Shown piece by piece: positions 3,593-39,215 of a stretch of 47,094 nucleotides of DNA. The DNA is from Thioalkalivibrio thiocyanoxidans ARh2 (GTDB lineage: Bacteria > Pseudomonadota > Gammaproteobacteria > Ectothiorhodospirales > Ectothiorhodospiraceae): positions 1 through 47,094 of the forward strand of contig NZ_ARQK01000034.1 of NCBI RefSeq assembly GCF_000385215.1, given 5' to 3'. Made by a program: the position numbers and the translations under genes. The notes under the pieces were generated by a model that saw only the letters and a program-made list of their open reading frames with translations, did not search any database and was not told the DNA's origin. Positions within the stretch are counted from its first letter, which is position 1, and every line of letters begins with the position of its first letter.

Positions 3593-3612
3593 TACTGGGC
3601 TGGCATTGAGCA

Positions 3613-3788: not shown

Positions 3789-3834
3789 TAGTTTCGTCTG
3801 CGGGTGCCCGACAGTGCCCGCACACCGTTCTGGA

Positions 3835-4030: not shown

Positions 4031-4066
4031 GGCTGGCAGGTAGACCCTGCTGGCCGCCCTTTTTTT
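4026..4066 (+). terminator. Riboswitch expression-platform terminator
   Basis: GGGCGGC and GGCAGG arms pair with CCTGC and GGCCGCCC around a TAGAC loop, followed by seven T at 4060-4066. It lies between aptamer 2 and gcvT, so it is a conditional terminator rather than an operon end. Confidence 0.88.
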
Positions 4067-4156
4067 ATGCCCCGCGTACGCGCCGCGTGTATGGCAGGGG
4101 CCGCGTCGGGCCGGGAGGCGGCCCGTCTCACGAACACGGATGCAAGGCGACAAAAG

Positions 4157-5257
4157 ATGAGTCTGAAGAAAACGCCGCTTCACGCCGCGCACCAGCGCGC
4201 CGGGGCCAAGCTGGTCGACTTCGCCGGCTGGGAGATGCCGCTGCACTATGGCTCCCAGATGGAGGAGCACAAGATGGTGCGCGCCGGGGCCGGCATGTTC
4301 GATGTCTCGCACATGCAGGTCGTCGATATCCACGGCCCGCAGGCGCAGCCCTTCCTGCGCTACCTGCTGGCCAACGATGTCGCCAAGCTGAAGACCGAGG
4401 GCCGCGCCCTGTACAGCTGCATGCTGAACGAGTCCGGCGGCGTGATCGACGACCTGATCATCTACTGGACCGGGGGCGACAGCTACCGCGCCGTGGTCAA
4501 CGCCGCGACCGCCGAGGGCGACATCGCCCACATGCAGCAGGTGGCGAAGGACTTCGACGTGAATGTCGAGCCGCGCCCGGAGTTCGCGCTGATCGCGATC
4601 CAGGGCCCGCAAGCGGTGGAGAAGACGCTGCCGCTGCTGCCCGAAGACCTGCGCTCGGCGGCCGGCGATCTCAAGCCATTCTCCGCCGTCTGGAACGATG
4701 CCTGGTTTGTCGCCCGCACCGGCTACACCGGCGAGGACGGCTTCGAGGTGATGCTGCCGCAGGCGGAGGCCGACGGCTTCTGGGAAAAGCTGAAGGACGC
4801 CGGCGTCAATCCGATCGGCCTGGGCGCGCGTGACACGCTGCGCCTGGAGGCGGGTATGAACCTCTACGGCACGGACATGGACGACCGGACCAATCCGCTG
4901 ACCGCGAATCTCGGCTGGACCATCGCCCTGAAGGACGCCGAACGCGACTTCATCGGCCGCAAGGCCATCGAGCAGTGGAAGGCCGAGGGCGTGAAGGAAC
5001 GCATGGTCGGGTTGGTGCTGGAGGGTCGCGGCGTGCTGCGTGGCGGCACCCGGATCGAGACCCCGGCCGGCGACGGCGTGGTCACCTCCGGCAGCTTCTC
5101 CCCGAGCCTCGGTGTATCGATCGCGTTCGCGCGCATCCCGGCCGCGGTGGACGCCGAGGAGCTGCAGGCGGATATCCGCGGCCGCATGCTCCCGGTCCGG
5201 GTGGTCAAGCCCGTATTCGTGCGCAACGGCGAACCGCAGATCGAACTGAATCTCTAG
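4157..5257 (+). CDS. gcvT: Glycine cleavage system T protein (aminomethyltransferase)
   Basis: A 366-residue protein that transfers the methylene group from the aminomethyl-lipoyl H protein to tetrahydrofolate, releasing ammonia. The N-terminus has the typical [20 protein letters not shown] and GMFDVSHM; later come [10 protein letters not shown] and [17 protein letters not shown]. Length is normal. The reading frame is open far upstream through the riboswitch, but [10 protein letters not shown] at 4157 is the family start. It is first in the gcvT-gcvH-gcvPA-tpx-gcvPB operon and directly downstream of the glycine riboswitch terminator. Confidence 0.97.
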
Positions 5258-5331
5258 CGATTTTATTGCCTCATGCCGCTTGCCACAGACTAAACTGCGC
5301 AGGCGGGATCCAAACGAAAAAGGAAGACGTC

Positions 5332-5724
5332 ATGAGCGAAGCACCGAAGGACCTGAAGTACACCAAGAGCCACGAGTGGGTGCGCCAGGAGGCCGACGGC
5401 AGCGTGACCATCGGTATCACCGATCACGCGCAGGAACTGCTGGGCGATCTGGTGTTCGTGGAGGCCCCGGAGGCGGGCGCCTCGGTCGAGGCCGGTTCCG
5501 CCTGCGCGACGGTCGAGTCGGTCAAGGCCGCCTCGGACGTGTACGCCCCGCTGTCCGGCGAGGTGACCGAGGCCAATGAAGAGCTGGCCGACAGTCCCGA
5601 GAAGGTCAACGAGTCGCCGTTTGACGAGGGCTGGCTGTTCAAGATGAAGCCCTCCGATGCGAGCCAGCTCGATGCCCTGATGGACGCCGACGCCTACGCG
5701 GCGCACGTCGAGGCCGAGTCCTGA
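5332..5724 (+). CDS. gcvH: Glycine cleavage system H protein
   Basis: A 130-residue lipoyl carrier that shuttles the aminomethyl group between P, T and L proteins. The lipoylation site is [20 protein letters not shown], with the modified lysine at residue 65. The conserved N-terminal YTKSHEWV and C-terminal GWLFKMKP are also present. The start at [10 protein letters not shown] is preceded by AAAAAGGAAG, a good ribosome binding site. It follows gcvT by 74 bp. No lipoate ligase gene is in the window. Confidence 0.97.
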
Positions 5725-5842
5725 TCCGACGTTCCCGACGGGGCGGTTCCTGACGGAACCGGCCCGGCAGGAACGAGAAGGCGCCCCGGGCATCCGGCCC
5801 GGGGTCCGATCCGAACTTCGCAGTAGCGAAAGCGAGTACGAC

Positions 5843-7201
5843 ATGCCCTTTATCCCGCATACCGAAGAAGACATCCGCGCGATGCTCGACCGCATCGGCG
5901 CCGATTCCATCGAGGATCTGTTCGACGAGATCCCGAAAGAACTGCGCGCGCCGGCGCTCGAAAAGGTCCCCGAGGGACTGAACGAGATGGCGATCGCGCG
6001 CCTGATGCAGGAGCGTGCGGCGCGGGACGGCATGGCATCCAATTTCATCGGTGCCGGGGCCTACGAGCACCATATCCCGGCGGCCGTGTGGCAGATCGCC
6101 ACGCGTGGCGAGTTCTACAGTGCCTACACGCCGTACCAGGCGGAGGCCAGCCAGGGCACGCTGCAGCTGATCTATGAGTACCAAACGATGATCAGCCGCC
6201 TGACCGGCATGGAGGCCTCCAACGCCTCGCTGTACGACGGCGCCTCTGCGCTGGCCGAGGCCGTGCTGATGGCCGTACGCGTGAACCGCCGCTCGAAGAG
6301 CAAGAAGGTGCTGGTCCCGGGCGCGCTGCACCCGGACTACCGCCGCGTGATCCACACCCTGATCGGCAACCAGGGCATCGAGCTGGTCGAGATCCCGTTC
6401 GACGAGACCTCCGGCCAGACGCCGGTCGAGGCGCTGGCGCCGTTCGCGGACGACGACGTCACCGCGATGATCATCAGCCAGCCGAACTTCTTCGGGATCC
6501 TGGAAGATGTCGACGCACTCACCGGCTGGGCCGAGCAGCGCGAAATCCCGGTGATCGCCGTGGTCAACCCGGTCTCGCTGGCCCTGCTGAAGCCGCCGGG
6601 CGAGTGGGGCAGCAACGGTGTCGATATCGTGGTGGGCGAGGGCCAGCCGCTGGGAGCCCCGCTGTCCTCCGGCGGGCCGTACTTCGGCTTCATGACCACG
6701 CGCAAGAAGCATATCCGGCAGATGCCGGGGCGTATCGTCGGCCGCGCCGAGGACGCCGACGGCAAGCCGGGCTACGTGCTGACGCTGCAGGCGCGCGAGC
6801 AGCACATCCGCCGCTCCAAGGCGACCTCGAACATCTGCACCAACCAGGGCCTGGTGGTCACCGCCGCGACGATCCACATGTCGATGCTGGGTGACGAAGG
6901 CCTGACCCGGGTCGCCGAGGCCTGCTACGCCAATACCCACGCGCTGGTGGAGAAGCTGGCGGCCAAGGGCATCAAGCCGCGCTTTACCGGCGAGTACTTC
7001 CACGAGGTCGCGCTGGACTTCGGCGGGGACGCCGCGAGCCGCGTGCAGGCGATGGCCGACGCCGGCGTGCTGGCCGGCTACGAGCTGAGCCGCGACTATG
7101 CCCAGCTCGACGGCTGCGTGCTGGCCTGCGCGACCGAGACCAAGACGGATGCCGACCTGGAGCAGTATGTGACGACCTGCGAGCAGGCGAAGGCTGCCTG
7201 A
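5843..7201 (+). CDS. gcvPA: Glycine dehydrogenase (decarboxylating) subunit 1
   Basis: The 452-residue N-terminal half of the PLP-dependent P protein, which decarboxylates glycine and passes aminomethyl to GcvH. The start [15 protein letters not shown] and the core segments [33 protein letters not shown] and [19 protein letters not shown] are typical of the split (two-subunit) enzyme. It forms a heterotetramer with GcvPB, which is encoded one gene further on. PLP itself is bound by the other subunit. The two halves are separated by tpx, an unusual order. Confidence 0.96.
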
Positions 7202-7251
7202 CGCGGGTCGCACGCGACGCGCCATACACCACAAGCCTGAGGAGGCACGCC

Positions 7252-7779
7252 ATGGCCGAAGTCAAACTGAAGGGCAATCCGATCCATACCAACGGCGATC
7301 TTCCGCATGTCGGCTCGCCGGCCCCGGATTTCAAGCTGACGACCAAGGACCTCGAGGACGTCTCGCTCGCCAATTTTGGCGACAAGCGCAAGCTGATCTA
7401 CATCGTGCCCAGTCTGGACACCCCGGTCTGCGCCGAGTCCACCAAGAAGTTCGAGGACCTCGTCAAGCAGCGCCCGGATCTGGAGATCCTGGTGGTCTCC
7501 GCCGACCTGCCGTTCGCGATGGGCCGCTTCTGCGCCGCCGAGAACCTCGAGCGCGTGACCGTGCTGTCGATGATGCGCGATCGCAACTTCGCCAAGGACT
7601 ACGGCGTGCTGATCCAGGACGGCCCGCTGGAGGGCATCACCGCCCGCGGCGTCGCGCTGCTGGACACCGACAATCTGGTGATGCACGCGGAGCTGGTCTC
7701 CGAGATCGGCGACGAGCCGGACTACGACGCCATCTTCAAGGCCCTCGACGACCGGGCCGATCTGAGCCCGACGCAATAA
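7252..7779 (+). CDS. tpx: Thiol peroxidase (Tpx-type 2-Cys peroxiredoxin)
   Basis: A 175-residue peroxiredoxin that reduces H2O2 and alkyl hydroperoxides using thioredoxin. The peroxidatic site is VPSLDTPVCAESTKKF with Cys60; the resolving cysteine is Cys94 in MGRFCAAENLE, the Tpx spacing. The C-terminus carries ARGVALLDTDN and SEIGDEPDYDA, both family hallmarks. It has a clean ribosome binding site (GAGGAGG) and lies inside the glycine cleavage operon between the two P-protein subunit genes, so it is probably co-transcribed under the glycine riboswitch. Confidence 0.94.
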   Translation: MAEVKLKGNPIHTNGDLPHVGSPAPDFKLTTKDLEDVSLANFGDKRKLIYIVPSLDTPVCAESTKKFEDLVKQRPDLEILVVSADLPFAMGRFCAAENLERVTVLSMMRDRNFAKDYGVLIQDGPLEGITARGVALLDTDNLVMHAELVSEIGDEPDYDAIFKALDDRADLSPTQ

Positions 7780-7857
7780 GTCAGGAGCTACAGACGGCGG
7801 GGCCTGTTCGACCCGGGCCCCGCCGCCTTCCACGAATTCCTTAAGCGAGAAACCGCT

Positions 7858-9369
7858 ATGAGCACCATGGAAAACCATCTGATCTTCGAACGTTCGCGTG
7901 CCGGTCGCTCGGCCGTGGCCCAGGCGCCGCGCGCGCATGCCGCGACCGCCATCCCCGCGAACCTGCGGCGCAAGTCGGCCCCCGGGCTGCCCGCGGCCTC
8001 GGAGCTGGATGTGGTGCGTCACTACACGCGGTTGTCGCAGAAGAACTTTTCCATCGACACCGAGTTCTACCCGCTGGGCTCGTGCACGATGAAGTACAAC
8101 CCGCGCGCCTGTAACAGCCTGGCCATGCTGCCCGGCTTCCTGAACCGGCACCCGCATGCCCCGGCCAGCCACAGCCAGGGTTTCCTGCACACCATGTTCG
8201 AGTTGCAGGAGATGCTGAAGGACGTGACCGGCATGAAGGCCGTGTCGCTGGCGCCGATGGCCGGCGCGCAGGGCGAGTTCACCGGCGTGGCGATGATCCG
8301 CGCCTATCACGATGCGCGCGGCGACAGCGAGCGCCGCGAGATCATCGTCCCGGACGCCGCGCATGGCACCAATCCGGCGACCGCGATCATGTGCGGCTAC
8401 GAGGTGCGCGAGATCCCCACCGACGAGAGTGGTGACGTGAACCTCGAGGCGCTGAAGGAGGCCGTGGGTCCGCAGACCGCCGGGATCATGCTGACCAATC
8501 CGTCCACCGTGGGCGTGTTCGAGCGCCGCATCTCCGAGATCGCGAAGATCGTCCACGACGCCGGTGGCCTGCTGTACTACGACGGCGCCAACCTGAACGC
8601 GATCCTCGGCAAGGTGCGCCCGGGCGACATGGGTTTCGACGTGATCCACATGAACCTGCACAAGACCTTCTCCACGCCGCACGGCGGGGGTGGTCCGGGT
8701 TCCGGTGCGGTTGGCGTCGGCGAGCGTCTGCTGCCGTACATGCCGGTGCCGCATGTGATCGAGAACGGCGAGGGCGGCTACCGCTTTGCCACCGAGACCG
8801 ACTACCCGGAGACCATCGGCCGCCTGTCCGCGTTTGCCGGCAACGCCGGCGTGCTGCTGCGCGCCTATGTCTACATGCGCATGCTGGGCCGCGAGGGCAT
8901 GCAGCGCGTGTCCGAATTCGCCACGCTGAACGCCAACTACCTGGCGCGGGAGCTGGAAAGCGCCGGCTTTGACCTGGCCTATCCCGAGCGCCGCGCGACC
9001 CACGAGTTCATCGTCACGCTCAAGAAGCAGGCGAAGGAGCTGGGGCTGACCGCGGGCGATGTCGCCAAGCGCCTGCTGGACCACGGGTACCACGCACCGA
9101 CGACCTACTTCCCGCTGCTGGTGCCGGAGTGCCTGCTGGTCGAGCCGACCGAAACCGAGTCGAAGGAGACGCTGGACGGCTTCGTCGAGGCGATGGCCGC
9201 GATCCTGGAAGAGGCCGGACGCGACATCGACACCATCAAGGCCTCCCCGCACAACCTGCCGAACCGCCGCTTCAACGAGGTGGCCGCGGCCAAGGCCCTG
9301 GACGTGGTGTACCAGGAGCCCAGGGACGACGAGGGCGAACCCGCGCCGCGCACGGGTACCAGCGGTTAG
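7858..9369 (+). CDS. gcvPB: Glycine dehydrogenase (decarboxylating) subunit 2
   Basis: The 503-residue C-terminal half of the split P protein. It contains the PLP-binding lysine in the segment [20 protein letters not shown] (Lys269), along with [14 protein letters not shown] near the N-terminus and THEFIVTLK later. Together with GcvPA it forms the complete decarboxylase. The last about 20 residues (acidic, low complexity) extend past the family core. It is the final gene of the operon, with a strong intrinsic terminator 33 bp after the stop. Confidence 0.96.
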
Positions 9370-9402
9370 TTGGCCGCGCGCGGGAATCCGCTTTTCCGTC
9401 AG

Positions 9403-9431
9403 CGCCCCCGGTTTTCCGGGGGCGTTTTTTT
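9403..9431 (+). terminator. Intrinsic terminator of the gcv operon
   Basis: A perfect 9-bp stem CGCCCCCGG/CCGGGGGCG with a TTTT loop is followed by seven T. Confidence 0.95.
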
Positions 9432-9531
9432 GCGCCCTGCGTTTCTCGAAATGGGCAGCCGTTGCGAAAAAACCCGATTTCTGTGGTAGGGTTTAGACCG
9501 ATTATCGGGATCCATTATTACGTCCGTGGGC

Positions 9532-9575
9532 TCTCCCGGCAGGGGAGATAAAAGAGGTCAGGCAGACCTTTTTTT
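9532..9575 (+). promoter_or_regulatory. Two-hairpin leader before the first diguanylate cyclase
   Basis: A hairpin TCTCCC/GGGAGA (9532-9537 with 9543-9548) is followed seven bases later by AGGTC/GACCT (9555-9559 with 9565-9569) running into seven T, which looks like a weak terminator or attenuator. It ends only 18 bp before the start codon. No known riboswitch consensus (including c-di-GMP types) was recognised in it. Confidence 0.4.
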
Positions 9576-9592
9576 CGGGCAAGGACTAGGGA

Positions 9593-11968
9593 ATGACACA
9601 GATCTGTGCGGCCCACGGGTACGCCGCGCTGTTCGAGCACGCCCCGGTGGGGCTGGCCGAAATGGACACGGAAGGGCGCATCCTGCGCGCGAACCCGCGC
9701 CTGGGCGATATGCTGGCCTGCGACCCCGGGGATCTGGTCGGGGGATGGCTGCGCGAGCGCCTGCTCCCGGAGGATGTCGAACCCTGCGAGGCGCGGCGGC
9801 GCGAGCTGCTCGACGGGAGTTGCCCCAACTGCCGGGTAGAGGTTCGCCTGGTGGAGGCCACGGGCCTTGCCCGCTGGGTCGAGATCAGCATCAGCCGTAT
9901 CCCCGCGACGAATGACGGCCCGGAGGTGCTGCTGGCGGCCGTTGCCGATATCGATGCGCGCAAGCAGGCCGAGCAGCGGATGGACAGCCTGCTGCGTGCC
10001 AGCCCGGCAGTCATCTACACCATGGATCCGGACAATCTGGGTACGATGACCTGGCTCAGCCGCAATGCCGTCTCGGTGACCGGCTGGACCCCGGAGCAGA
10101 TCAGTTCGAATCCAGACTGGCTGGCAACCCATATCGCCTCGGAGGACTATCGCCGGTGTGTCAGTCAGGTTCGGCGCTGGATCGCCGACGGGGCCCATGG
10201 GTCCTGCCGACTGAATTACCGCCAGCGGATGCCCAACGGCCGCTGGCAGTGGCTGGAGGACCAGGTCACCGCTATCCGTGACAACACCGGTGCGGTGACC
10301 GAACTGGTGGGTGCCTTTCAGGACGTCGGCGCACGGGTCGCGACCGAACGCCACCTGGAAAAGATTGCCCGCAACCTGCCCGGCGCGATCTACCAGTACC
10401 GCCAGCACCCCGACGGGCGCGGCTGCTTCCCGTACGCCAGCGAGGGGATGAGCGATATATTCGGCATCACACCCGAGGAGGCGATGCGCGATGCCGAGGC
10501 AGTGTTTCGGGTGATCCATCCGGAGGACGTGGAGCGTATCCGGGCAAGCATCGAGGCGTCGATGCGATCGCTGGAGCCCTGGCTGCAGCGCTATCGCGTG
10601 CTGAGTCCCGAACGTGGCGAGATCTGGCTGGAGGGCCACTCAAGTCCGGAGGCCCTGGACGATGGCAGTGTGCTCTGGCACGGCGTGATCCTGGACATCA
10701 CGCAGCGGGTGCGTGCCGAGCATGCGCTGCACCGCAGCGAGCAGGAACTGGCCCTGGCACAACGCATCGCGCATGTCGGCAATTGGGTCAGGGATTTCCG
10801 GAAACAGGAGATTCGCTGGTCGGACGAGGTCTATCGCATCTTCGGGATGGAACGATGCCGCTGGGAGGGCACGCACGGGGCGTTCATGCAGGCGGTCCAC
10901 CCGGAGGATCGTGATCGTGTCCAGGCAGCCGTGGACCGCGCGCTGGCCGGGCTCGAGCAGTTCGATGTGATCCACCGCATCGTGCGACCGGATGGGACCG
11001 AGCGCGTGGTGCGCGAGCGTGCTTCCGTGGAGTTCGGCTCCTCGGGCGCGCCCGAGCGCATGGTGGGCACGGTGCAGGACATTACCGAACAGCACCACCT
11101 GGAGCAGGAACAGCGCCTGCTCGCGGCGACCTTCGAGACCAGCCAGGCCATCTTCATCTCGGACGTTGAAGGCACCATCCAGCGCGTGAACGCGACGTTT
11201 ACGCAGCTCACGGGATACACCGAGGAGGAGGCCGTGGGGGCGAACCCGCGCATCCTGAATTCCGGGCGTCAGGATCGCGACTTCTACGAACAGATGTTCC
11301 GCACGGTGCGCGAGACAGGGCACTGGCAGGGCGAGATCTGGAACCGCCGGAAGAATGGCGAGATCTTCCCGCTGCACGAGATCGTTACCGCGATCCGCGA
11401 CGATCAGGGCGAGATCGAGTACTACATCGCGATGTTCCACGACATCACGCGGCAGAAGGAACTCGAGGCCGCCCTGGAGCATCAGGCCTTCTACGACACG
11501 CTGACCGATGCCGCCAACCGCGGTTATTTCGAGAGCCTGCTGGAGCAGGAGGCGCGGCGCGCGCAGCGCTACGAGCACCCCTGTTCGCTACTGCTGCTCG
11601 ATATTGACCATTTCAAGCGCATCAATGATACCTTCGGCCATGAAGTGGGCGATGAAGTCCTGCGCTGCCTGGTTCAAGCCCTGAAGGGGCGTCTGCGCGA
11701 GGCGGACATACTGGGGCGCTGGGGCGGCGAGGAATTTGTGGTCCTGCTGCCCGGAACGGACGCGGAGCGTGGTCAGCATGTGGCCGAACAGCTGCGCGAG
11801 CAGGTCACTACCACGACCTTCCCCTGTGTGGGCCTTGTCACGATCAGTCTGGGGGTGGCGGAGTACCGGCCCGGCGAACCCGTCAAGGACTGGGTGAAGC
11901 GCGCCGACGAGGCCATGTATGCTGCCAAGGAGGGCGGGCGCAACCGGGTCGTGCGACTGAGTACATAA
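9593..11968 (+). CDS. Multi-PAS diguanylate cyclase (PAS x5-GGDEF)
   Basis: A 791-residue soluble sensor predicted to make cyclic di-GMP. About five PAS/PAC modules are visible (roughly residues 10-125, 130-250, 255-385, 395-505, 510-625), each ending in a D-I/V-T/G-x-R/Q type linker. The C-terminal GGDEF domain has the active-site variant GGEEF at 711-715, and the inhibitory I-site READ five residues before it, so product feedback is expected. There is no EAL or HD-GYP domain, no transmembrane segment and no heme-type motif that I can name. It is followed after 40 bp by a longer paralogue with two clearly related PAS modules. Confidence 0.9.
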   Translation: MTQICAAHGYAALFEHAPVGLAEMDTEGRILRANPRLGDMLACDPGDLVGGWLRERLLPEDVEPCEARRRELLDGSCPNCRVEVRLVEATGLARWVEISISRIPATNDGPEVLLAAVADIDARKQAEQRMDSLLRASPAVIYTMDPDNLGTMTWLSRNAVSVTGWTPEQISSNPDWLATHIASEDYRRCVSQVRRWIADGAHGSCRLNYRQRMPNGRWQWLEDQVTAIRDNTGAVTELVGAFQDVGARVATERHLEKIARNLPGAIYQYRQHPDGRGCFPYASEGMSDIFGITPEEAMRDAEAVFRVIHPEDVERIRASIEASMRSLEPWLQRYRVLSPERGEIWLEGHSSPEALDDGSVLWHGVILDITQRVRAEHALHRSEQELALAQRIAHVGNWVRDFRKQEIRWSDEVYRIFGMERCRWEGTHGAFMQAVHPEDRDRVQAAVDRALAGLEQFDVIHRIVRPDGTERVVRERASVEFGSSGAPERMVGTVQDITEQHHLEQEQRLLAATFETSQAIFISDVEGTIQRVNATFTQLTGYTEEEAVGANPRILNSGRQDRDFYEQMFRTVRETGHWQGEIWNRRKNGEIFPLHEIVTAIRDDQGEIEYYIAMFHDITRQKELEAALEHQAFYDTLTDAANRGYFESLLEQEARRAQRYEHPCSLLLLDIDHFKRINDTFGHEVGDEVLRCLVQALKGRLREADILGRWGGEEFVVLLPGTDAERGQHVAEQLREQVTTTTFPCVGLVTISLGVAEYRPGEPVKDWVKRADEAMYAAKEGGRNRVVRLST

Positions 11969-12008
11969 GGATTCCATCGGGCCCCAGGCCCGGAGCAGGG
12001 TAAGCTGA

Positions 12009-15000
12009 ATGGCGAGCACCGAAAACGCCGAGCCCATCCAACTCGAGCACATTGCGGTCGGTCTGGTCCAGCTGGATGCCGCGGGTTCCATCCGCACCGT
12101 CAATGGCCGCCTGGCGGAATGGCTCGACTGCTCGCCGGATGACCTGCGGGGCATTGCCCTCACCGACTGCGTCGCGCCCGGGCAGCGGCCATCGCTGGCG
12201 GACGCCTTGCAGCGTTCGGCCACAGCCGAGGTGCCCCTGAGCGTGGACATGCGCGCGCCGGCTGCGCCCGAAGGGGCCTCGCTCTCCTGTACGTTGACGC
12301 TGGTGCCGGATGACGACGGGCGCGTTGTGACCGTTCAGCGCATGCCCGGGGGCGATTCCGCCGCGCAGGTCTACGAGCAGACCTTTACCGCCAATACCGC
12401 ACCCAAGCTGCTGATCGATCCGGCGGATGGCCGGATTGTCGATGCCAACCCCGCCGCGGTGAGCTTCTACGGATACACGGCCGACACCCTCAAGGCCATG
12501 CATATCCAGGACATCAACACGCTGTCGGCCGAAGACGTGCGGGTCGAGATGCAGCGTGCCAAGAGCGAGGAGCGCCGGTACTTCCGGTTCCGCCACCGCA
12601 TCAAGGGGGGCGAGATCCGCGAGGTCGAGGTGTACTCGGGCCCGGTGGTGCTGGACGGCACCACCTACCTCTACTCGATTATTCACGATGTCTCCGAGGC
12701 CCGGCGCTACGAGCGCGAGCTGGAATTCTACGGGGCCGTGTTCCGGCGTCTGCCGGTGGGCGTTTACCGCAACACGGCCGGGCCGGAAGGCCGCTTTGTC
12801 TGGCTCAATCCGGCCATGGTGGCGCTCTTTGAAGCCGAGTCCGAGGTGCAGCTGTGCGCAACCCCGGTGCAGGCACTGTATCGTGACCCGGCCGCGCGCG
12901 AGGCATTCAGTCGCGATCTGGAGATGCACGGCCGCGTGGTCGGTCGTGAACTCGACCTGCAGACGCTGCGCGGTCGGGCCTTTCGGGCGCGCGTGACCGC
13001 CTATCGTACTCAGGACGAGGACGGCGAGCCCGTGTTCGATGGCGTGATCGAGGACGTCACCGAGGTGCGCGCGGCCGAGGCCTTTCAGACTCGCCTGCTG
13101 GCCAGCCTGGCGGAAGGCGTATTTGGCCTGGATCGTTACGGCCGCTACACCTTTCTTAACCCGGCGGCCTGCCGTCTGCTGGGGTTCAAGAACGAGGCCG
13201 AGGCACTCGGGCGCGATGCGCATTCGACCAACCATCACTCGTTGGTGGGCGGGGAGCCCTATCCCAAAGAAGCCTGCCCGATCCTCCGGGTCCTGGAGAC
13301 GGGTCAGTCGGATGAACCCTGGGACGACTATTTTGTGCGGACCGATGGCTCCCATTTTCCGGTGAGCGTCTTCGCAGCGCCGACGTTTGATGCGGCCGGT
13401 CGGGTCGATGGTGTGGTGGTGTCGTTCCAGGACCAGACCGCCCGGATGGAAAGGGAGATTCAGCTGACCAAGGCCACCGCCCATTTGCCCGGGGCGATCT
13501 ACCAGTACCATCTGTATCCCGATGGGCGGCACGCGTTTCCGTTCGTCAGTGATGGGGTGCGGCGCGTGTTCGGGCTCAGCCCGGGGCTGGTTCAGGACAG
13601 CGCGGATGCGGCCTTTGCACGGGTCTACCCGGAGGACCTGCCTCGCATCCAGGCGAGCATCGAGGAGTCGGCGCGGTCCATGGAGCCCTGGCGGGTTCGT
13701 TTCCGAGTCCGCCACCCGCTGCGCGGGACGATCTGGGTCGAGGGTCGTGCGACGCCCGAGACACGCCCGGATGGCGGTATCGCCTGGTACGGCATGATGA
13801 TCGACATCAGCGAGCAGGTGGAGATGGAAGAGGCCCTGCGCGAGCGGGGCCGTGAACTGGCAGAGGCCCAGCGGATCGCCCATGTCGGGAGCTGGTACTG
13901 GGATGTGCGCACGGATCGCGCACGTGGCTCGGACGAGTTCTATCGGATAATGGGATTGGCTCTCAGTCAGGGCGAGGTCACCAGTGAGCGCTTTTTCAGC
14001 GTGGTCCACGCTGAGGACCGCTCTGCGGTTCGGGCCAAGCTGCAATCCGCCCTGGAGACGGGTGACTGCGATCTTCATTTTCGTATCGTGCGGCCGGATG
14101 GGGTGGAACGGATCGTGCATGTCCGGGGGGCACGCGAGACGGGTCAGGGAAAGGTGGAACAGTGTCTGGTGGGGACCGTGCAGGACGTGACCGAACGGCG
14201 CGCCCTGGAGGATAACCAGCGCCGTCTGGTCGGGATCCTGGAACATACGCCCGACGTGGTCGCCATGCACGGGCCTGCCGGTGACATGCAGTTCCTGAAC
14301 GCTGCCGGCCGCCGCCTGTTGGGTCTGCCTCCTATGAAGGGCGAGCCGTGGACCGCTGCAGACGGCTGGAATACCTGGGGGTTCCCGTCCGAGGCCCGGT
14401 CCATCGAGACTGCCGTGCGGCGGTTCCATCCCCCGTGGGCGGCCGATCGCATCCTGAACGAGGCCACCCCGATTGCAATGCGAGAGGGTGCCTGGGAGGG
14501 CGAGACGGCCATGCTGGACGGTCAGGGACGCGAGGTCCCGGTGTCTCAGGTGATCATCGTGCGCCGCGACGACCGGGGCGAGATCCTGCAGGTGTCGACC
14601 ATCCTGCGCGACCTGTCGCAACGCAAGGCGATGGAGGAAGCCCTGCGCGAGAGCGAGGCACGCTTTCGCCAGTTGGCGGGCAGCGTGAACGAGGTGTTCT
14701 GGCTCCAGGACGAAAGCGGGATCCTGTACGTGAATCCGGCCTTTGAACGGATCTGGGGGCAGAGCCGCGACCTCCTCTACCGTGATCCGCATTCAATACT
14801 GGAGGCCGTGCATCCTGAAGACCGCGAACGTGTGGAGCTCCGCTTCCTGGATCGCCCACTGGAGGGTGCCCACATCGAGGATGTCTTCCGTCTGCGTCGT
14901 GCGGACGGCACCGAGCGCTGGCTCCATGTGCATCGCTACCAGGTGCCCGACGAGGAAGGCCGCGTGAGCCGTGTGGCGGGGACTGCCGTGGATATCACCG

Positions 15001-31240: not shown

Positions 31241-31540
31241 CCACAATGTGGGTGTCCCACAACGCGTGCCACGCCTCCACAAGGTGGGTGTCCCACAACA
31301 CGCAACACGAGCCGGCATGCGTTCCTGTCAGAAGACCCGTCCATAATATGGGTGTCTCACATCTACCGGCATCTACAAAGTGGATGCCCTACACAAGGAA
31401 GTGCGACGTTATCGAGCACCGTACAAAGTGGGTGTCCTACACAGTGGGTGCAAAGTGGGTGTCCTACACAGTGGGTGGGCATCCACAAAGTGGGTGTCCT
31501 GCACAAGGAAAGTGGGGGGCATCCACAAAGTGGGTGTCCT
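31241..31540 (+). repeat. Degenerate GTGGGTGTCC repeat array, proximal cluster
   Basis: At least eight copies of a motif (A)AAGTGGGTGTCCYRCACA lie here on the same strand, beginning at 31248, 31284, 31348 (ATGGGTGTCT), 31380 (GTGGATGCCC), 31428, 31455, 31490 and 31530, with partial copies between them. Spacing is irregular (26 to 64 bp). Several units form a GTGGG-TGT-CCCAC mini-hairpin. The open frames across the array are repeat-encoded and not credible genes. The rest of 31104-31646 has no other gene. Confidence 0.85.
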
Positions 31541-31646
31541 GTGTAAGGAACGCGGAAGGCAGATGTCTACGGCCGCGGGTATCACTTCGAGGTGCGTGGT
31601 AGAAGGCATGAATCGACGTAAGCCCGTGAATGGAAGGAGATGACGG

Positions 31647-32237
31647 ATGTGGGACGAGCGCTATGCCGCGGAAGAGTATGTCTACGGCACTAAACCGAAT
31701 GATTTCTTGCGTATGGCGGTGGCCAGCGTGCCGTGCGGCCGCGCCCTGTGTCTGGGCGAGGGGGAGGGGCGGAACGCGGTATTTCTGGCGCAGCAGGGGT
31801 TCGATGTGCTGGCGGTGGACAGCTCCGCGGTCGGGCTGAGAAAGGCCCAGCGCCTGGCCGAGGACCGCGGTGTTCGGATCGAGACCCTGGTGGTCGATCT
31901 CGCGGACTATGCGATCGAACCGGACTCGTGGGATCTGATCGTCTCGATCTTCTGCCATGTTCCTCCGGAGATTCGGCGCCGCCTGCATGCCGAGACGGTC
32001 GCGGCCCTGCGACCCGGTGGGACGTTCATTCTGGAGGCCTATACCCCGGCGCAGCTGGAGCGGGGGACTGGTGGACCGCCGGTGGCGGACTTGATGATGA
32101 CGCGAAGCGCGCTGATCGAGGAACTGGACGGGCTCGAGTTTCAAGAGGCCGTGGAGTGCGAACGCGACGTTATCGAGGGCCGCTTCCATACCGGGCGCGG
32201 GGCAGTCGTGCAGATCCTGGCGCACAAACCCCGGTAG
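31647..32237 (+). CDS. SAM-dependent methyltransferase, TehB-like
   Basis: A 196-residue class I methyltransferase. The SAM-binding motif I is CLGEGEGRNAVFLA, followed by the acidic residue in DVLAVDSS, then WDLIVSIFCHVPPEIRRRLH (motif IV/V) and ALRPGGTFILEAY. The opening MWDERYAAEEYVYGTKPNDF is typical of the TehB/thiopurine methyltransferase-like group. The substrate is unknown; chalcogen oxyanion or small-molecule methylation is possible. It is flanked by the GTGGGTGTCC repeats on one side and an sRNA-like module on the other. Confidence 0.88.
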   Translation: MWDERYAAEEYVYGTKPNDFLRMAVASVPCGRALCLGEGEGRNAVFLAQQGFDVLAVDSSAVGLRKAQRLAEDRGVRIETLVVDLADYAIEPDSWDLIVSIFCHVPPEIRRRLHAETVAALRPGGTFILEAYTPAQLERGTGGPPVADLMMTRSALIEELDGLEFQEAVECERDVIEGRFHTGRGAVVQILAHKPR

Positions 32238-32285
32238 GGCTGGTGACAAGACAACCTGGGTGTCCTCGAAGGGCAGAATAATCGT

Positions 32286-32451
32286 CAGTTTATTGGAGGA
32301 AATACCGCTCGTGGGGCAGATGAGACCGTTCGGTGAAAAATGAGGAATAGATCCACAAATCCTTAAACGATGTGCTACTTTTTAGCGCGAAGGCAGGGAC
32401 GCCTTCACTAGAGCCGCCCAGGAATGGAAGCCCGGGGGGCTCTTCCTTTTT
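32286..32451 (+). ncRNA. Candidate small RNA module 1 (hairpin plus terminator)
   Basis: The predicted RNA is about 32387-32451. An extended -10 (TGCTACTTT at 32373-32381) leads into hairpin GAAGGC-AGGGAC-GCCTTC (32389-32406) and a terminator with 6-bp outer stem AGAGCC/GGCTCT (32410-32443) ending TTCCTTTTT. The upstream block shares CAGTTTATT, TACCG, TGGGGCA and GACCGTTC in order with module 2 at 33808. Loops carry GGA motifs (AGGGAC, AGGAATGGA), as in CsrA/RsmA-binding RNAs. A CTGGGTGTCC motif lies at 32256. It sits after the methyltransferase and downstream of the convergent RAYT gene. Confidence 0.6.
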
Positions 32452-32613
32452 GCATCCTCGCCAACAAGCTACCCTGCTGACTGATCGCCCGGCACCGCCC
32501 GCCAGGACGAGCGTCGCTCGCCAGTTACCCCGGCAATGCTCGGAAGAAGCAAAGCGCAAGCAAGATGGGCGTCCGGCGCTGCCGGGCGGCGTTTCGACCC
32601 GCTGGGCAGCCCC

Positions 32614-33690
32614 TTAGGCAGCGGGCCGGGTGAACAGCGCCCGGGCCATGGATATTCCCCGCAAGTAGCGGCACTGTCGCTGCGCGGCCAGGTCCACCAA
32701 ATGCTCGGGTGCGCCAATGGCCGAGCCGAACGCCCGCAATAGATGGCTGGATTGCTGGATGAAGGTCTCTGCATCCATACCCAGCTGGTCCAGCAGGCGG
32801 AGGCGGTGCGCAGGGATCGACCCCCGCTTCGCTGGATGTACGCAACGCCCCAGCGCATCGGTCAGCTCCAGATAATCCTCGAACGCAAACGGAATCGCCG
32901 GCTCGAACTGGCCGGTCGCATCGAATGGCATCAGTGGCGCGCGGGGAAGCGAGCGCAGCTCACACTCAGGGCGAAGTTCGTTCGGGGTTACGCTGGAGTG
33001 GTTTTGGCATGCGGATTCGATCGGCGCGTTCCCGTTTTCCTCCTTGGCCTCCGGGCGGATGCGCCGTTGTAGCGAGGTGTGGTCACTCTGCTCCAGTGTC
33101 TCGACCATGCCGGCCCGGACCGGGTTCAAGTCCACGTAGCTCATCGCCGCCAGGACGGCCGCGTCATCCAGCAGGGCCTGGCTCTTGAAGCGCCCCTCCC
33201 AGAACCTTCCTCTGACGCCATCCTCCTCGTTGGCTTGCCGGGCGATGGATTCATTCAGCACACGCATGAACCACGATAGATCGGCCAGTCGCGCCCGATA
33301 GGTTTGGGCATATTCCTCGACTCGCCGTACCTGTGCAGCGCACATCAACTTCCGCCGAGTGGACAGATATTGGCGAACCAGTTCCGGGCCGGAGAACAGA
33401 CGCGTCCAGCGGCGCAGGACGGACTCGGTATCCAGCGAGGCTGCGCGTTCAGGATCCAGCCGTACCACCACATGGTAGTGATTGCTCATCACGGCATAGG
33501 CAGCCACATCGATCGTGAAGATCGCCGCCAGCTCCAGGATCCGCGTCTCGATCCATTGGCGGCGATGTTCGAAGTTGTGTCCGGACACGCGATCCTCGCC
33601 GCAGAGAAAGGCGCGCCGAACGCAGCGGGAGACGACGTGGTACCAGGGCGTGTCCTCAATGGACACGAGGGACGAGCGGGGTTGGGTCAT
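32614..33690 (-). CDS. REP-associated tyrosine transposase (RAYT, Y1 family)
   Basis: A 358-residue single-strand HUH transposase related to IS200/IS605 TnpA. The HUH motif is MSNHYHVVVRL (His71, His73) and the catalytic tyrosine is Tyr185 in SYVDLNPVRAGMV. The N-terminus TQPRSSLVSIEDTPWYHVVS and the internal ESIARQANEEDGVRGRFWEG are typical of this domesticated group, which acts on dispersed short palindromes rather than on its own ends. The C-terminal 150 residues are extra and less conserved. It is flanked by two paralogous hairpin modules and many GTGGGTGTCC repeats, its likely substrates. Confidence 0.92.
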   Translation of the reverse strand: MTQPRSSLVSIEDTPWYHVVSRCVRRAFLCGEDRVSGHNFEHRRQWIETRILELAAIFTIDVAAYAVMSNHYHVVVRLDPERAASLDTESVLRRWTRLFSGPELVRQYLSTRRKLMCAAQVRRVEEYAQTYRARLADLSWFMRVLNESIARQANEEDGVRGRFWEGRFKSQALLDDAAVLAAMSYVDLNPVRAGMVETLEQSDHTSLQRRIRPEAKEENGNAPIESACQNHSSVTPNELRPECELRSLPRAPLMPFDATGQFEPAIPFAFEDYLELTDALGRCVHPAKRGSIPAHRLRLLDQLGMDAETFIQQSSHLLRAFGSAIGAPEHLVDLAAQRQCRYLRGISMARALFTRPAA

Positions 33691-33768
33691 CGTGGACTCC
33701 TTCCATGGAATCAGACATTTCGGAAGCTAGATGCTCTTGGGCGCGACCGCAAGGGATTCCCTCAGAAA

Positions 33769-33778
33769 GTGGGTGTCC
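33769..33778 (+). repeat. GTGGGTGTCC repeat copy upstream of module 2
   Basis: GAAAGTGGGTGTCCTACGATGCC lies 30 bp before the start of the second sRNA-like module; the first module has a similar motif at the same side (32256). A further copy, GTGGGTGTGC, is at 34162-34171. Confidence 0.75.
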
Positions 33779-33807
33779 TACGATGCCGCCGGTGTTCTAC
33801 GATGCCG

Positions 33808-33971
33808 CAGTTTATTCCATCCAAAAGTACCGTCTATGGAGCAAAAACGACCGTTCAGTGGCCTCTTCGGTGTGCAGCTGGAAATCCACGAGGCTCGTGC
33901 TAGATTGTGCCCTGGGGCAAGGAAGCCCCTAAAGGGTCGTCCGGGAAGGGAATCCGCGGGCGGCCCTTTTG
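33808..33971 (+). ncRNA. Candidate small RNA module 2 (hairpin plus terminator)
   Basis: The predicted RNA is about 33912-33971. It has an extended -10 TGCTAGATT (33898-33906), hairpin GGGGC-AAGGAA-GCCCC (33914-33929), and a terminator arm AAGGGTCGTCCG pairing with CGGGCGGCCCTT and a T4 tail. Distances match module 1 exactly: 49 bp from GACCGTTC to TGCTA and 16 bp from TGCTA to the hairpin. The stem bases differ but still pair. The loops AAGGAA and GGGAAGGGAA carry GGA motifs. Nothing else was found in 33691-34233. Confidence 0.6.
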
Positions 33972-34233
33972 CGTTCTGTGCCCCGGCAATATCTGGTCAC
34001 AAGCCTGGAGCCCCTGGGAGCGGTGTCGTCGTAGTCTCGGTGCCCCGCGAGCGATCGTCTCTGATCATTTCATGAAGGCGTTGCATCCAGTAGCCATGCC
34101 GGAAAGCGCGCAGCGGTTATCCGGGGCCTGAGCGAGGGGCCGTGTAGCGGTGGGGAGGAAAGTGGGTGTGCCGCAGATGCCACCGCGATGTCAGTTGGGC
34201 ACACCATACCGCGGCCGGAGCCGCAGCCGGGCA

Positions 34234-34539
34234 CTAACGACTATTAGACGTCGGGCTATGTTCCTTGAGCCAGTCCTTCAAAGCCGAGTCCATTCGCGTT
34301 TGCCAGCCCTTTCCTGTAGCGCGGAATGCCTCCACGACGTCGGGCGACAGACGGATCGTGATGCGCTCTTTAGTCACAGGTAGAGGCGGGCGACCCACGC
34401 GTCGCAGGGCTTTCGTCTCGTCTTCGGAAGGTTCCCGGGTCTCTGGGTCCGCATCGATTCCGGCCTGAATGGACGACTCTTCGTCGGCGTCGTTCAAGAC
34501 GACCCGACGACCGCTACGTAGCGTTAGTGATTTCGACAT
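34234..34539 (-). CDS. brnA: BrnA-type antitoxin
   Basis: A 101-residue antitoxin of the type II brnTA system. The C-terminal ribbon-helix-helix DNA-binding region is VTKERITIRLSPDVVEAFRA followed by GKGWQTRMDSALKDWLKEH, the usual BrnA ending. It should neutralise BrnT and repress the operon. I prefer the ATG at 34539 (MSKSLTLRSG), which has GGGAGA upstream; an ATG three codons earlier is possible. It overlaps the end of brnT by 26 bp. Confidence 0.87.
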   Translation of the reverse strand: MSKSLTLRSGRRVVLNDADEESSIQAGIDADPETREPSEDETKALRRVGRPPLPVTKERITIRLSPDVVEAFRATGKGWQTRMDSALKDWLKEHSPTSNSR

Positions 34540-34792
34540 AACGCACAATCTCCCGGTTGTTGGCTTTGCGTAGGCTGATGATCCGCCGCACGGATGATCG
34601 ATCGGTGAATGCGACGCAATACAAGCGTTCGCCCATCAAGGCGTCCCCGAGCATTCGCCGTTCGCCGTAGCTTTTCCGTCGGTCTTCCATGGCCAGGAGC
34701 GTATCCCATTCGAGCCCGAGGGCATCGCCGAGTGAGACCCCGCGTTTCGCCAGGTTCGCAGCGTCCTTGTCTGCGTCAAACTCGATCCCCAT
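34514..34792 (-). CDS. brnT: BrnT-type ribonuclease toxin
   Basis: A 92-residue RelE-fold RNase toxin. The family start IEFDADKDAANLAKRGVSLG is followed by ERRMLGDALMGERLYCVAFT and RIISLRKANNREIVRY, which holds the conserved basic and catalytic residues. Length is normal. It is upstream of and overlaps brnA, the standard toxin-first order. The pair lies in the repeat-rich island, as expected for an accessory module. Confidence 0.88.
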   Translation of the reverse strand: MGIEFDADKDAANLAKRGVSLGDALGLEWDTLLAMEDRRKSYGERRMLGDALMGERLYCVAFTDRSSVRRIISLRKANNREIVRYVEITNAT

Positions 34793-34796
34793 CCAA

Positions 34797-34815
34797 TTAT
34801 TGTATGTACATTAAC
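34797..34815 (-). promoter_or_regulatory. Candidate promoter/operator of brnTA
   Basis: On the minus strand TACAAT can serve as a -10 and overlaps the palindrome ATGTACAT immediately before the brnT start. A palindrome at this position would suit BrnA autorepression. The -35 is not clear. Confidence 0.35.
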
Positions 34816-34990
34816 TGGTGAGTGCAGTTGGCGAGGTGGATTAGCCGCGGACCCTCGGGCCATCCCGGTCGTCTGGCAAGGCATAACACGCCACGGCGAA
34901 CACACCGGCGGAAGGCTAGTGGCCCTGGGGGGAGGGGGCGGAGTGGGAGTGTGGAGCCTACCGCCAGTGAGTTGTGTCGCTGGTGTCGGC

Positions 34991-35184
34991 GAATCGGGCT
35001 TATGACAACTGGGAGGAAAGTGGGTGTCCCACAGATGGCAGATGCCACCAACTGGGAGGAAAGTGGGTGTCCTGCAGGTCCGGTGTCCTTAATGACAACT
35101 GGGAGGAAAGTGGGTGTCTCACAGATGCACCCTGAAAGAAAAAGCCCCGGCACAAGGCCGGGGCTCAGTACTAAGTGGGTGTCC
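34991..35184 (+). repeat. GTGGGTGTCC repeats, distal cluster
   Basis: Three units of about 38 bp with the core ACTGGGAGGAAAGTGGGTGT start near 35002, 35049 and 35093 and end in CACAGATG-type sequence; the motif starts are 35020, 35063 and 35110. A fourth motif is at 35175. All point the same way as the 31-kb cluster. The open frame across 34822-35205 is repeat-encoded and not accepted as a gene. Confidence 0.82.
35136..35165 (-). terminator. Intrinsic terminator of the pilin gene
   Basis: A perfect 9-bp stem AGCCCCGGC/GCCGGGGCT (35143-35151 with 35157-35165) with an ACAAG loop is followed on the minus strand by TTTTTC. Confidence 0.92.
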
Positions 35185-35201: not shown

Positions 35202-35654
35202 TTAGAAGTCGCGGCAGGTACCAGGCCGGAAACGCTCGGGGATGGAGCCGCCGCATTCCCAGTTGACCGTTCCATCACCAGGCGAATAGCCCGCGGGCCG
35301 AAGGATGATCGTTTCACCATCCACATCAGGATGGATACCAGTGCCGGCTGTGACTTGAATTTCCTGGTTGGTCCACGCCGAGTCGGCTACGAGGTCGGAT
35401 TCCTGTTCTTCAATGCCGTATCCATCTGCTGGGAGATCGCCGTTCGAGGACACGTACTCCGCGATATCTGTCCGGCCGGCCGAAGCCGCTAGGATGATTT
35501 CGGACACTTGAGCGCGTACGGTGTAGTTCTGATAAGCCGGCAGCGCAATCGCCGCCAAAATCCCAATGATCGCCACAACGATCATCAGTTCGATAAGGGT
35601 GAAGCCCTGCTGGGCCTTCGGTTTGTTGATTCCTGCACGCATAACTTTATGCAT
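35202..35654 (-). CDS. pilA: Type IV major pilin (PilA-like)
   Basis: A 150-residue prepilin. The leader of 17 residues ends in G and is cut before [20 protein letters not shown], with the conserved Glu5 and the long N-terminal helix. The C-terminal region has two cysteines (WECGG and GTCRDF) that can close the usual D-region disulfide loop. The ATG at 35654 follows GGGAGTAACAAG. It has its own sigma-54 promoter and terminator, so it is a single-gene unit, with no other pilus genes in the window. Confidence 0.93.
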
Positions 35655-35716
35655 CTTGTTACTCCCTGGTGTGTGACGGAAGACGGAGCGCCGCCCAGCG
35701 GCATCCGTCCTAGCCG

Positions 35717-35734
35717 ATGCAAGGCGGGTGCCAA
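35717..35734 (-). promoter_or_regulatory. Sigma-54 promoter of the pilin gene
   Basis: On the minus strand TTGGCACCCGCCTTGCAT matches the -24/-12 consensus TGGCAC-N5-TTGCA exactly, with GG and GC ten bases apart. This agrees with PilR/RpoN control known for pilA in other gammaproteobacteria. Confidence 0.9.
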
Positions 35735-35979
35735 CTCGTCCGATTGCGTGAAAAGCCCCGTAGTCAGGCGGATTTAGCTCGCCTGATGCTCGGTGCATGA
35801 CGGCTTTGGTCACTTTGTGACAGGGTTCATGTGACCATTTTTGTCATGTGAGCTGACGCACATTGTCAGTTTCGGGGGCTTGTGTGGTGTTGTGCGGGGT
35901 GGGTTGCGCCAGGGGCTTCGGCTGGGGGCGGATATCCCGGCTCTTCGCTGCGCTGTGTCGGGATCACACTTTGGCGGGG

Positions 35980-37439: not shown

Positions 37440-38798
37440 CTACGGAGTCGCCAGGCCGAGCATCGCCACGGCCAGGGAGAAATAGATCATGATGCCACCG
37501 AGGTCCGCGATGGCGGTGATCAGCGGCACGCTGGCGGTCGCCGGGTCCAGCTTCAGACGGCTGAGGATGAACGGCAGCAGCATGCCGACCATGCTGGCGA
37601 ACGCGACGATTAGCGTCATCGCGATCGCCACCAGCAGGGCGATATCGGCCCCGCCGCGCCACAGGCCGAGGACCGATACGGCCAGGCCCATGGTCACGCC
37701 GATCCCGACGGCCACGCCGAGTTCCTTGCCCCACAGCCGCAGCCAGTCCTTGGACGTGACCTCGCCGGTGGCCAGGGCGCGCACCATCAGCGTGGCGCTC
37801 TGGGCGCCAGCGTTGCCGCCCGAGTCGATGATCAGCGGCAGGAAGAACACCAGCACCACCAGCGCCTCGATGGCCTCCTCGTACTGCGAGATCATCAGCG
37901 CGCCGATGGTGTTGAACGCGACCAGACCGATCAGCCAGCCCACGCGCTTGCGATACAGGAGAAAGGGGCTCGCATCCTGTGGCGAGAGCGGGAGCGTTCC
38001 GACCGCCCCGATCTTGTGGAAGTCCTCGGTGGATTCGGCCTCCAGCACGTCCATTACGTCGTCGACCGTGATCACCCCCAGCAGCTCGCCGGTCTCGCCG
38101 ACCACAGGCAGGGTTTCCAGGTCGTAGTGCTGGATCTTGCGCGCGGCCTCGACGGCGGTGGCGGAGACCGGGATGGTGATCGGATCGGATTCGCCCAGCA
38201 GCTCGCGCACCGGGCTGTCCGCCGAGGCGCGCAGGAAGTGCCGGATCGGCACGGCGGCGAGCAGCACGCGGTCCTGATCGACCACGAAGATCACGTTGTT
38301 CGAGTGTTCGTCCGCGTTGCGACGGATGAAGGCCAGCGCGCGCTTGAGCGTCCAGTCGGGGTCCACCGCGACGACATCCGGGGACATCACGCGACCGGCG
38401 GAGTCCTCCGGGTAGTTCAGCTGCTTGAGGGCGCGGCGGATGGCACGAAACGGCAGCAGCCGCAGGTAGCCGCGCAGTGTCTCCGGGTCCAGGGTCTGGA
38501 GCAGGCCGGTGAGGTCGTCGGCCTCCATCTCGGAGAGGATGAAACGGGCGTCGTCCTTCGGCGAGGCCTCGAGCAGCCGGATCTGGTGCGGGGTGTCGAG
38601 GTAGGAGAAGACATCCGCCTTGCGCCCGGGCTCCAGCAGGTTGAACACCGCGCACAGGTCGTCGTCGCCCAGCTCCATCAGCGCATGCGCGATATCCTGC
38701 ACGCGCGTGTAGTCGAGCAGTTCCTGGATGCCTTCGCGGTCATCCAGACGCAGCAGCTCCTTCAGCTCGATGATGGATTGTTCCAGATGCAAATCCAT
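37440..38798 (-). CDS. mgtE: Magnesium transporter MgtE (copy 2)
   Basis: A second 452-residue MgtE with the same domain order: acidic N-domain, CBS pair (YDLETLPVVGETGELLGVIT), and a C-terminal membrane part with SGGNAGAQSATLMVRALATG. Much of the CBS and pore sequence resembles copy 1, but the first 130 residues are clearly different, so this is an old tandem duplication rather than a recent one. It is the upstream gene of the pair. Confidence 0.95.
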   Translation of the reverse strand: MDLHLEQSIIELKELLRLDDREGIQELLDYTRVQDIAHALMELGDDDLCAVFNLLEPGRKADVFSYLDTPHQIRLLEASPKDDARFILSEMEADDLTGLLQTLDPETLRGYLRLLPFRAIRRALKQLNYPEDSAGRVMSPDVVAVDPDWTLKRALAFIRRNADEHSNNVIFVVDQDRVLLAAVPIRHFLRASADSPVRELLGESDPITIPVSATAVEAARKIQHYDLETLPVVGETGELLGVITVDDVMDVLEAESTEDFHKIGAVGTLPLSPQDASPFLLYRKRVGWLIGLVAFNTIGALMISQYEEAIEALVVLVFFLPLIIDSGGNAGAQSATLMVRALATGEVTSKDWLRLWGKELGVAVGIGVTMGLAVSVLGLWRGGADIALLVAIAMTLIVAFASMVGMLLPFILSRLKLDPATASVPLITAIADLGGIMIYFSLAVAMLGLATP

Positions 38799-39215
38799 GC
38801 CCTACTCCCGGCTGTCATCCGCGGGCCAGGGGGGCTGGATACACAGCCTCACAAGGCGCCGCACGGATGCGGTGTCTTGGTCCGGTCGGGATCGGGCTGG
38901 GGCCCGGCCGCTCCCGGCGCTCTAGTACTTAGAGGCCCAGCGGGAAGCGTCCGGTTCGGGAAGGAGGCGCTTACCGCGAGGCGCAGATAGATCGACTGCG
39001 TGATCGGCGTTTCAAGGCGCGTTCCCGTGTGTGGATATGCGACTTATTCTAACGGATGTCGGGCCGCAATCAACCGCTTGGGGGCTGTTTTGAAACATTC
39101 CTCTCCCGTCAGGGGTCTGTTTCGACAGGATGCGGCTTTCGCGTTGCAGCGATATGAAGGGGCACATGGAGCAGCCGTTCCGACACGGTTCGACCGGCCA
39201 GGCAGGGGCTATGCG
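38799..39215. other. Intergenic region between mgtE and the Att-like operon
   Basis: About 417 bp holding the divergent promoters. I looked for an M-box magnesium riboswitch on the minus strand and saw only a short resemblance (GTGAGGCT), not the full consensus. No gene is supported. Confidence 0.4.

Follow-up and report, generated by a model that had tools for sequence, protein, structure and literature searches.

Two related modules in a 47,094-nucleotide stretch of the Thioalkalivibrio thiocyanoxidans ARh2 genome (the window) belong to a family of putative genes for very small RNAs, and the anatomy of these RNAs argues very strongly that they are minimal CsrA/RsmA-sequestering RNAs. The family, its conserved fold, two loop motifs, an upstream box with its spacing, csrA, and a kinase-LytTR locus are all established by computation. 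The decoy RNAs are likely to be under AlgR-type control, and we hold with good confidence that the modules are autonomous CsrA-decoy small RNA (sRNA) genes driven by AlgZ/AlgR instead of GacS/GacA. The decoy form is already known; what would be new is the presence of an AlgR-type switch in place of a GacA-type switch on very small decoys.

The modules, located at 32286-32451 and 33808-33971 of the window, align over about 165 bp, and both consist of an upstream element, an extended -10 and two hairpins, the first with a hexaloop and the second a terminator (Table 1). The initial annotation had described these paired modules and their spacings, and both were confirmed: GACCGTTC starts at 32324 and 33849, the distance from there to TGCTA (32373 and 33898) is 49 bp in each copy, and the first hairpin starts 16 nt past TGCTA in each copy. 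The pattern AGTTTATT-N6-20-TACCG has two matches in the window compared with none in 100 shuffles. In the 2.77-Mb genome the CAGTTTATT-TACCG pattern has two matches, both at the modules, but the reversed control also matches once, so the weight rests on the two occurrences being within 1.5 kb of each other. By itself, GACCGTTC occurs seven times in the window versus 1.6 expected. A blastn-type search of the whole genome with copy 1 as the query did not reach copy 2. When both strands of the window were scanned for two loop-borne ANGGA motifs and a T run (motifs 20-45 nt apart, fold energy below -22), only these two places were returned.

Table 1. Features of the two ARh2 modules and of the ORF between them (window positions).
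Feature	Position	Strand	Remark
Copy 1 half site 1, LytTR/AlgR-type, ACCGCTCGT	32304-32312	+	aligned in 26 modules
Copy 1 half site 2, ACCGTTCGG, 12-bp spacer from half site 1	32325-32333	+	
Copy 1 -35-like hexamer CACAAA (most relatives TGGAA-like)	32354-32359	+	assigned from the alignment
Copy 1 extended -10, TGC TACTTT	32373-32381	+	transcription start predicted near 32387
Copy 1 putative ~60-65 nt RNA, two ANGGA hairpin loops	32387-32451	+	ends predicted
Copy 1 hairpin 1, GAAGGC / loop AGGGAC / GCCTTC	32389-32406	+	
Copy 1 terminator hairpin (32410-32443), AUGGA in loop, then T-rich tail	32410-32451	+	
Copy 2 half site 1, ACCGTCTAT	33829-33837	+	
Copy 2 half site 2, ACCGTTCAG, 12-bp spacer	33850-33858	+	
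Copy 2 -35-like hexamer TGGAAA	33879-33884	+	assigned from the alignment
Copy 2 extended -10, TGC TAGATT	33898-33906	+	
Copy 2 putative ~60 nt RNA, two ANGGA hairpin loops	33912-33971	+	ends predicted
Copy 2 hairpin 1, GGGGC / loop AAGGAA / GCCCC	33914-33929	+	
Copy 2 terminator hairpin, loop AGGGAA (33947-33952)	33931-33969	+	
RAYT-like Y1 transposase ORF between copies	32614-33690	-	antisense, outside module

An exact-pattern search initially matched 15 of 58 genomes. Only the places in G001, G025, and G029 were kept as seeds; the remainder, mostly in genomes of other families and with about equally frequent control matches, were dropped. A sequence-only model built from five module copies then identified 26 modules in 14 of 30 Thioalkalivibrio genomes (E below 1e-7) with one to three copies per genome. 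In one of these genomes, G029, bases 1000-15000 of a 240,256-base contig are identical to part of plasmid NC_013930.1 from Thioalkalivibrio sp. K90mix, which places the set in this genus. In the module pairs of G002, G009, G019, and G024, only a few hundred bp separate the two members. A structure model applied to 47 genomes of the family re-found the same 26 modules together with a weak member in G007, and no match outside the genus was observed in these genomes at E 0.001. In 369 class-level genomes (eight candidates scored per genome), the structure model matched only the two of Thioalkalivibrio at E 0.001. Relaxing E to 0.1 returned 11 further weak matches. The weak matches L049, L061, L063, L064, L079-L082, and L094 were judged by eye: L079 (G007) resembles a two-hairpin member that has diverged, L080 has the box but lacks the RNA, and L049, L061, L063, L064, L081, L082, and L094 resemble terminators or coding DNA and were rejected as members. 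At L131 (G007, 5571-5634, - strand) the predicted RNA is divergent, with two hairpins that each have ACAGGGA in the loop, and there is no recognisable LytTR box upstream.

The fold of the RNA is conserved through pairing, as had been suggested from the two ARh2 copies. In the alignment of the 26 modules (23 distinct sequences), 94.7% of the cells are paired and two-sided changes are found at 8 of 19 pairs. The covariation score is higher than that of all 500 shuffles and all slid controls; two of the five measures (pair or pair-type counts) are weaker and were reached by 38 and 198 of the 500 shuffles. The sequence A-GGA is kept in both loops while the stems vary with compensation. All 23 distinct RNAs have two ANGGA motifs with the GGA unpaired in hairpin loops of the minimum-energy structure, an arrangement seen in 0 of 920 dinucleotide shuffles, and the GGA-to-GGA distance is 22-27 nt. 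One copy has three ANGGA motifs, ACARGGAUG is present in 6 of the 26 copies, and an A/G mismatch closes the terminator loop in 6 of the 26 rows (copy-1 type). At the sequence level, each aligned module is equipped with a box, a promoter, and a terminator of its own, all on the same strand. The RNA start points were placed from the -10, which gives a predicted RNA size of ~60-65 nt.

These features can be compared with the known RNA ligands of CsrA. The CsrA consensus determined by SELEX is RUACARGGAUGU and the RsmE hexaloop is ANGGAN; dual-site binding by CsrA occurs at distances of 10-63 nt and is best above 18 nt (PMC7652899). Most of the SELEX hairpins have four or fewer pairs, whereas the module stems are longer (5-6 bp, in addition to the terminator) (PMC7652899). 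Since there is an ANGGA in each loop and the GGAs are 22-27 nt apart, one RNA could hold one CsrA dimer. The gene csrA was found in 13 of the 14 module-bearing genomes, the exception being G019, which is 66% complete, and the ARh2 CsrA scores over the CsrA cut-off. The earlier proposal of a duplicated family of ~60-nt RNAs, possibly titrating CsrA/RsmA, is therefore strongly supported by the 14 genomes, the covarying stems, and the ANGGA in both loops. With two sites at one-dimer spacing, the RNAs may be useful as a minimal model of dual-site CsrA binding.

Upstream of the promoter, the remaining common letters form two 9-bp direct repeats separated by a 12-bp spacer in 26 of 26 modules. The TACCG and GACCGTTC elements are the two halves of this single direct repeat, which has a period of 21; the full CAGTTTATT is confined to the nearest relatives and TATTCCA is present in 8 of the 26 aligned rows. 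Half site 2 is 48 nt from TGnTA in 25 modules and 47 nt in one. When scored against a 9-mer that we take to be the LytTR consensus, the half sites average 8.2 and 8.0 of 9 (range 6-9 among the 26 modules) versus a window background of 4.0. The box, which was absent from the initial description of the modules, is likely to be a LytTR/AlgR-type control element. The core recognized by AlgR is CCGTTCGTC, and AlgR-class regulators bind two imperfect repeats about 12 bp apart, although the AlgR sites of Pseudomonas are not necessarily paired at this distance (PMC4064291).

A model of the box returned 33 matches at E<0.1 in the 30 genomes, of which 26 are the sRNA modules (23 of these were training sequences), four precede a minor-pilin-like gene with the same 21-bp period (G000, G001, G025, and G029, which include the ARh2 genome), and three are elsewhere, two of them apparently in coding DNA. 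All of the matches at E<0.1 fell outside the 11 genomes that lack a LytTR gene. A paired box that contains an exact CCGTTCGTC was also found in G032, a genome of a different genus, before a similar minor-pilin-like gene. The G000 and G032 pilins score above the cut-off of the general model for the prepilin domain, and none of the named pilin families is over its cut-off for these two proteins; the name PilE-like for the box-preceded pilins was given in this analysis. AlgR activates fimU-pilVWXY1Y2E in Pseudomonas (PMC4064291), and the physiological output of the modules is probably linked to type IV pili. A type IV pilin-like gene is also located close to copy 2 (window 35202-35813, - strand), and the pilin-like ORFs noted by eye in G004, G005, G021, and G024 are no more than about 5 kb from a module.

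A LytTR gene is present in 19 of the 30 genomes, including all 14 with the sRNA, each of which has one such regulator, and 5 of the 16 without it (G007, G008, G010, G012, and G013 have the gene and no full module). The co-occurrence gives a Fisher p of 8.7e-5 in the 30 genomes and 0.002 in the 23 better genomes, both with kinship ignored; because the relatives have a common ancestry, genomes in which box, sRNA, and LytTR occur together are not independent cases. The order of the ARh2 locus is argH-His_kinase-LytTR-hemC, which agrees with the argH/hemC order that we take to surround algZR in Pseudomonas. On the basis of domains and gene order, the ARh2 regulator is most likely the single AlgR orthologue with its kinase AlgZ/FimS. 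No NCBIfam family is over its cut-off for the regulator among the 25 of 74 matches listed, and its PDB matches span the receiver domain only.

In many Gammaproteobacteria the Csr decoy RNAs are the output of GacA/UvrY (PMC7652899). At the NCBI cut-off GacA was detected in 0 of the 30 genomes, while 1 of 14 control genomes passes, and exact matches to the GacA box TGTAAG-N6-CTTACA were found in 0 of the 30. GacA control of the modules was rejected for these 30 genomes as both the exact box and a GacA over the cut-off are absent. For 12 of the 14 genomes with the sRNA, the best match is confined to the receiver domain (about 60-64 bits), and G011 and G019 have a full-length relative (127 bits). 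GacA-like proteins scoring 170-201 bits were found in G012, G018, G020, G027, and G028, all without the sRNAs, and G012 also has a LytTR gene. The proteins of G018 and G027 were not called GacA because the neighbouring gene resembles, by eye, a kinase and not uvrC. The module at L127 (G026, 5416-5565, + strand) lies downstream of two tRNAs and of genes that resemble, by eye, uvrC and pgsA. The uvrC/pgsA-like neighbourhood often houses gacA/uvrY in other Gammaproteobacteria.

In the proposed mechanism, each module would be an autonomous small-RNA gene. A LytTR-type regulator, most likely AlgR with AlgZ/FimS, would bind the direct repeats, which lie about 53-83 bp ahead of the predicted start, and activate a sigma-70 promoter of the extended -10 type. 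The resulting ~60-nt RNA would fold as two hairpins, the second of which would also serve as the terminator, and one RNA would fill both binding faces of a single CsrA dimer, thereby keeping CsrA off mRNAs. Transcription of the modules, the binding of CsrA and of AlgR, and activation rather than repression are all predictions made from sequence. We lean towards the broader proposal that in Thioalkalivibrio AlgZ/AlgR has replaced GacS/GacA as the direct Csr input via ~60-nt one-dimer decoys. AlgR would then control type IV pili twice, at the pilin promoter and, via CsrA, post-transcriptionally. If this is true, a lineage with no GacA over the cut-off and with decoys under AlgR-type boxes would demonstrate that the input of the global Csr switch is exchangeable, and the suspected AlgR-Rsm link of Pseudomonas would become testable in a simple and direct form.

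Other explanations differ in which part of this proposal they replace. The modules could be decoy RNAs with a box that is bound by a different regulator, so that the resemblance to AlgR sites arose by chance. The 9-mer consensus is a loose one, AlgR binding is only predicted, and the divergent G007 RNA has no box, all of which leave some room for this idea; against it, the same box with its 21-bp period precedes a minor-pilin-like gene in four genomes of the genus and in G032, genes of this class are AlgR targets, and each of the 14 sRNA genomes has one LytTR gene. We consider a different regulator unlikely. It is considerably less probable still that the modules are Hfq-type base-pairing sRNAs with coincidental GGA loops, or attenuator or leader elements of downstream genes. 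Base-pairing sRNAs are typically short and end in a terminator, and two-hairpin leaders exist, but the A-GGA is kept in both loops while the stems compensate, none of the 920 shuffles reproduces the loop arrangement, and the ORFs downstream of both ARh2 copies are on the opposite strand.

The explanation to which we give the least credence, as very improbable, is that the RAYT between the ARh2 copies uses the hairpins as REP-like substrates or leaves them behind as by-products. The ORF is a distant member of this group (Y1_Tnp 19.7 bits, cut-off 23; REP_Tyr_transpos 44.3 bits, cut-off 80). Twelve of the 26 modules, two in the window and 10 elsewhere, have a RAYT match no more than 2 kb away, and some of these matches are remnants. 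The twelve are both ARh2 copies, the modules of G001, G025, and G029, and one each in G004, G005, and G011; the match in G004 is 1.4 kb away, that in G005 is a remnant, and one of the three G029 modules has only a 35-residue remnant. In contrast, no match was found in the examined flanks of the other 14 modules (some contigs or flanks are short), which indicates that the association is a property of some loci and not of the RNA. The position of the RAYT exactly between two copies thus holds in the window and fails as a general rule, as the close pairs in G002, G009, G019, and G024 have no RAYT match around them, and the initial annotation's question of whether copies always lie beside RAYT genes is answered in the negative. 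Its suggestion that the hairpins are RAYT substrates also fits poorly with one to three copies per genome and with a box, promoter, and terminator that are conserved on one strand. Moreover, a different short repeat, GTGGGTGTCC, is multi-copy nearby. Eleven copies of GTGGGTGTCC were found, all on the + strand, one at 26504 and ten in 31248-35175, and eight of them read AAGTGGGTGTCC; this repeat around the RAYT and the sRNAs is perhaps the REP-like element of the RAYT. A BrnT/BrnA toxin-antitoxin pair (window 34234-34792, - strand) adjoins copy 2.

The predicted AlgR-controlled decoys resemble RsmX/RsmY/RsmZ and CsrB/CsrC in being intergenic, in having their own promoter and GGA in hairpin loops, in occurring as more than one paralogue per genome, and in their control by a two-component regulator, which is predicted for the modules. 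They differ in size and number of sites (~60-65 nt and two sites versus about 110 nt or more and several sites) and in having an AlgR-type box and no exact GacA box. For example, rsmX-2 is 110 nt (PMC7911923). The initial statement that no described family has such a form was therefore too strong, as the modules have the known Csr/Rsm decoy form at very small size. No Rfam family matches the modules at its gathering score in the window or in the 20 loci searched, where only two tRNAs pass. TwoAYGGAY, PrrB_RsmZ, RsmY, CsrB, and CsrC did not reach gathering in the window, in 32200-34050 (searched up to E 10), or in the 20 loci (searched up to E 1), and TwoAYGGAY gave no match to the window copies up to E 10. 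TwoAYGGAY (RF01731), which by its name has two AYGGAY sites, gave the best score of these five families in the 20 loci, 31.4 bits at the G024a module on the right strand, compared with a gathering score of 43. Its listed occurrence is in human gut, gamma-Proteobacteria, and Clostridiales (PMC2864571).

The ftsZ-DE family gave eight weak matches at the loci (L039, the best at 37.2 bits, L040, L042, L045, L046, L047, L053, and L058; gathering 72.2, best E 0.0022). It was not taken as the module family because all eight are on the strand opposite the modules. Three weak ftsZ-DE matches, on both strands, are also found in the window. The eight matches at the loci probably reflect near-palindromic hairpins.

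The AlgZ/AlgR regulon of Pseudomonas aeruginosa is similar: its LytTR regulator is encoded next to a His_kinase gene, its sites are of the CCGTTCG type, and pilins are among its targets. The module box differs in being paired at 12-bp spacing and in standing directly before decoy RNAs. Over-expression of AlgR raises rsmA, rsmY, and rsmZ in Pseudomonas, and whether the effect is direct is described there as unknown (PMC4064291). A literature search joining CsrA, LytTR, and sRNA found nothing on this topic. In T. nitratis ALJ2, csrA was reported to rise when the temperature is low, and AlgR is unmentioned in the available text of that study (PMC8092127). The main text of a structured-RNA survey of a Thioalkalivibrio genome, to which this comparison is confined, does not contain CsrA or GGA and gives its 10 sRNA candidates and 607 low-ranking candidates as counts (PMC11109978). 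The mgtE, aceE-II, ykoW, and smtA motifs are structured RNAs from the same genus, and those shown are leaders or complex folds. The mgtE RNA motif (RF04316), a Thioalkalivibrio-specific riboswitch candidate, is present in the window at 38791-39097 on the - strand (310 bits) before an MgtE-like gene, and tandem glycine riboswitch aptamers are located at 3821-4034 on the + strand.
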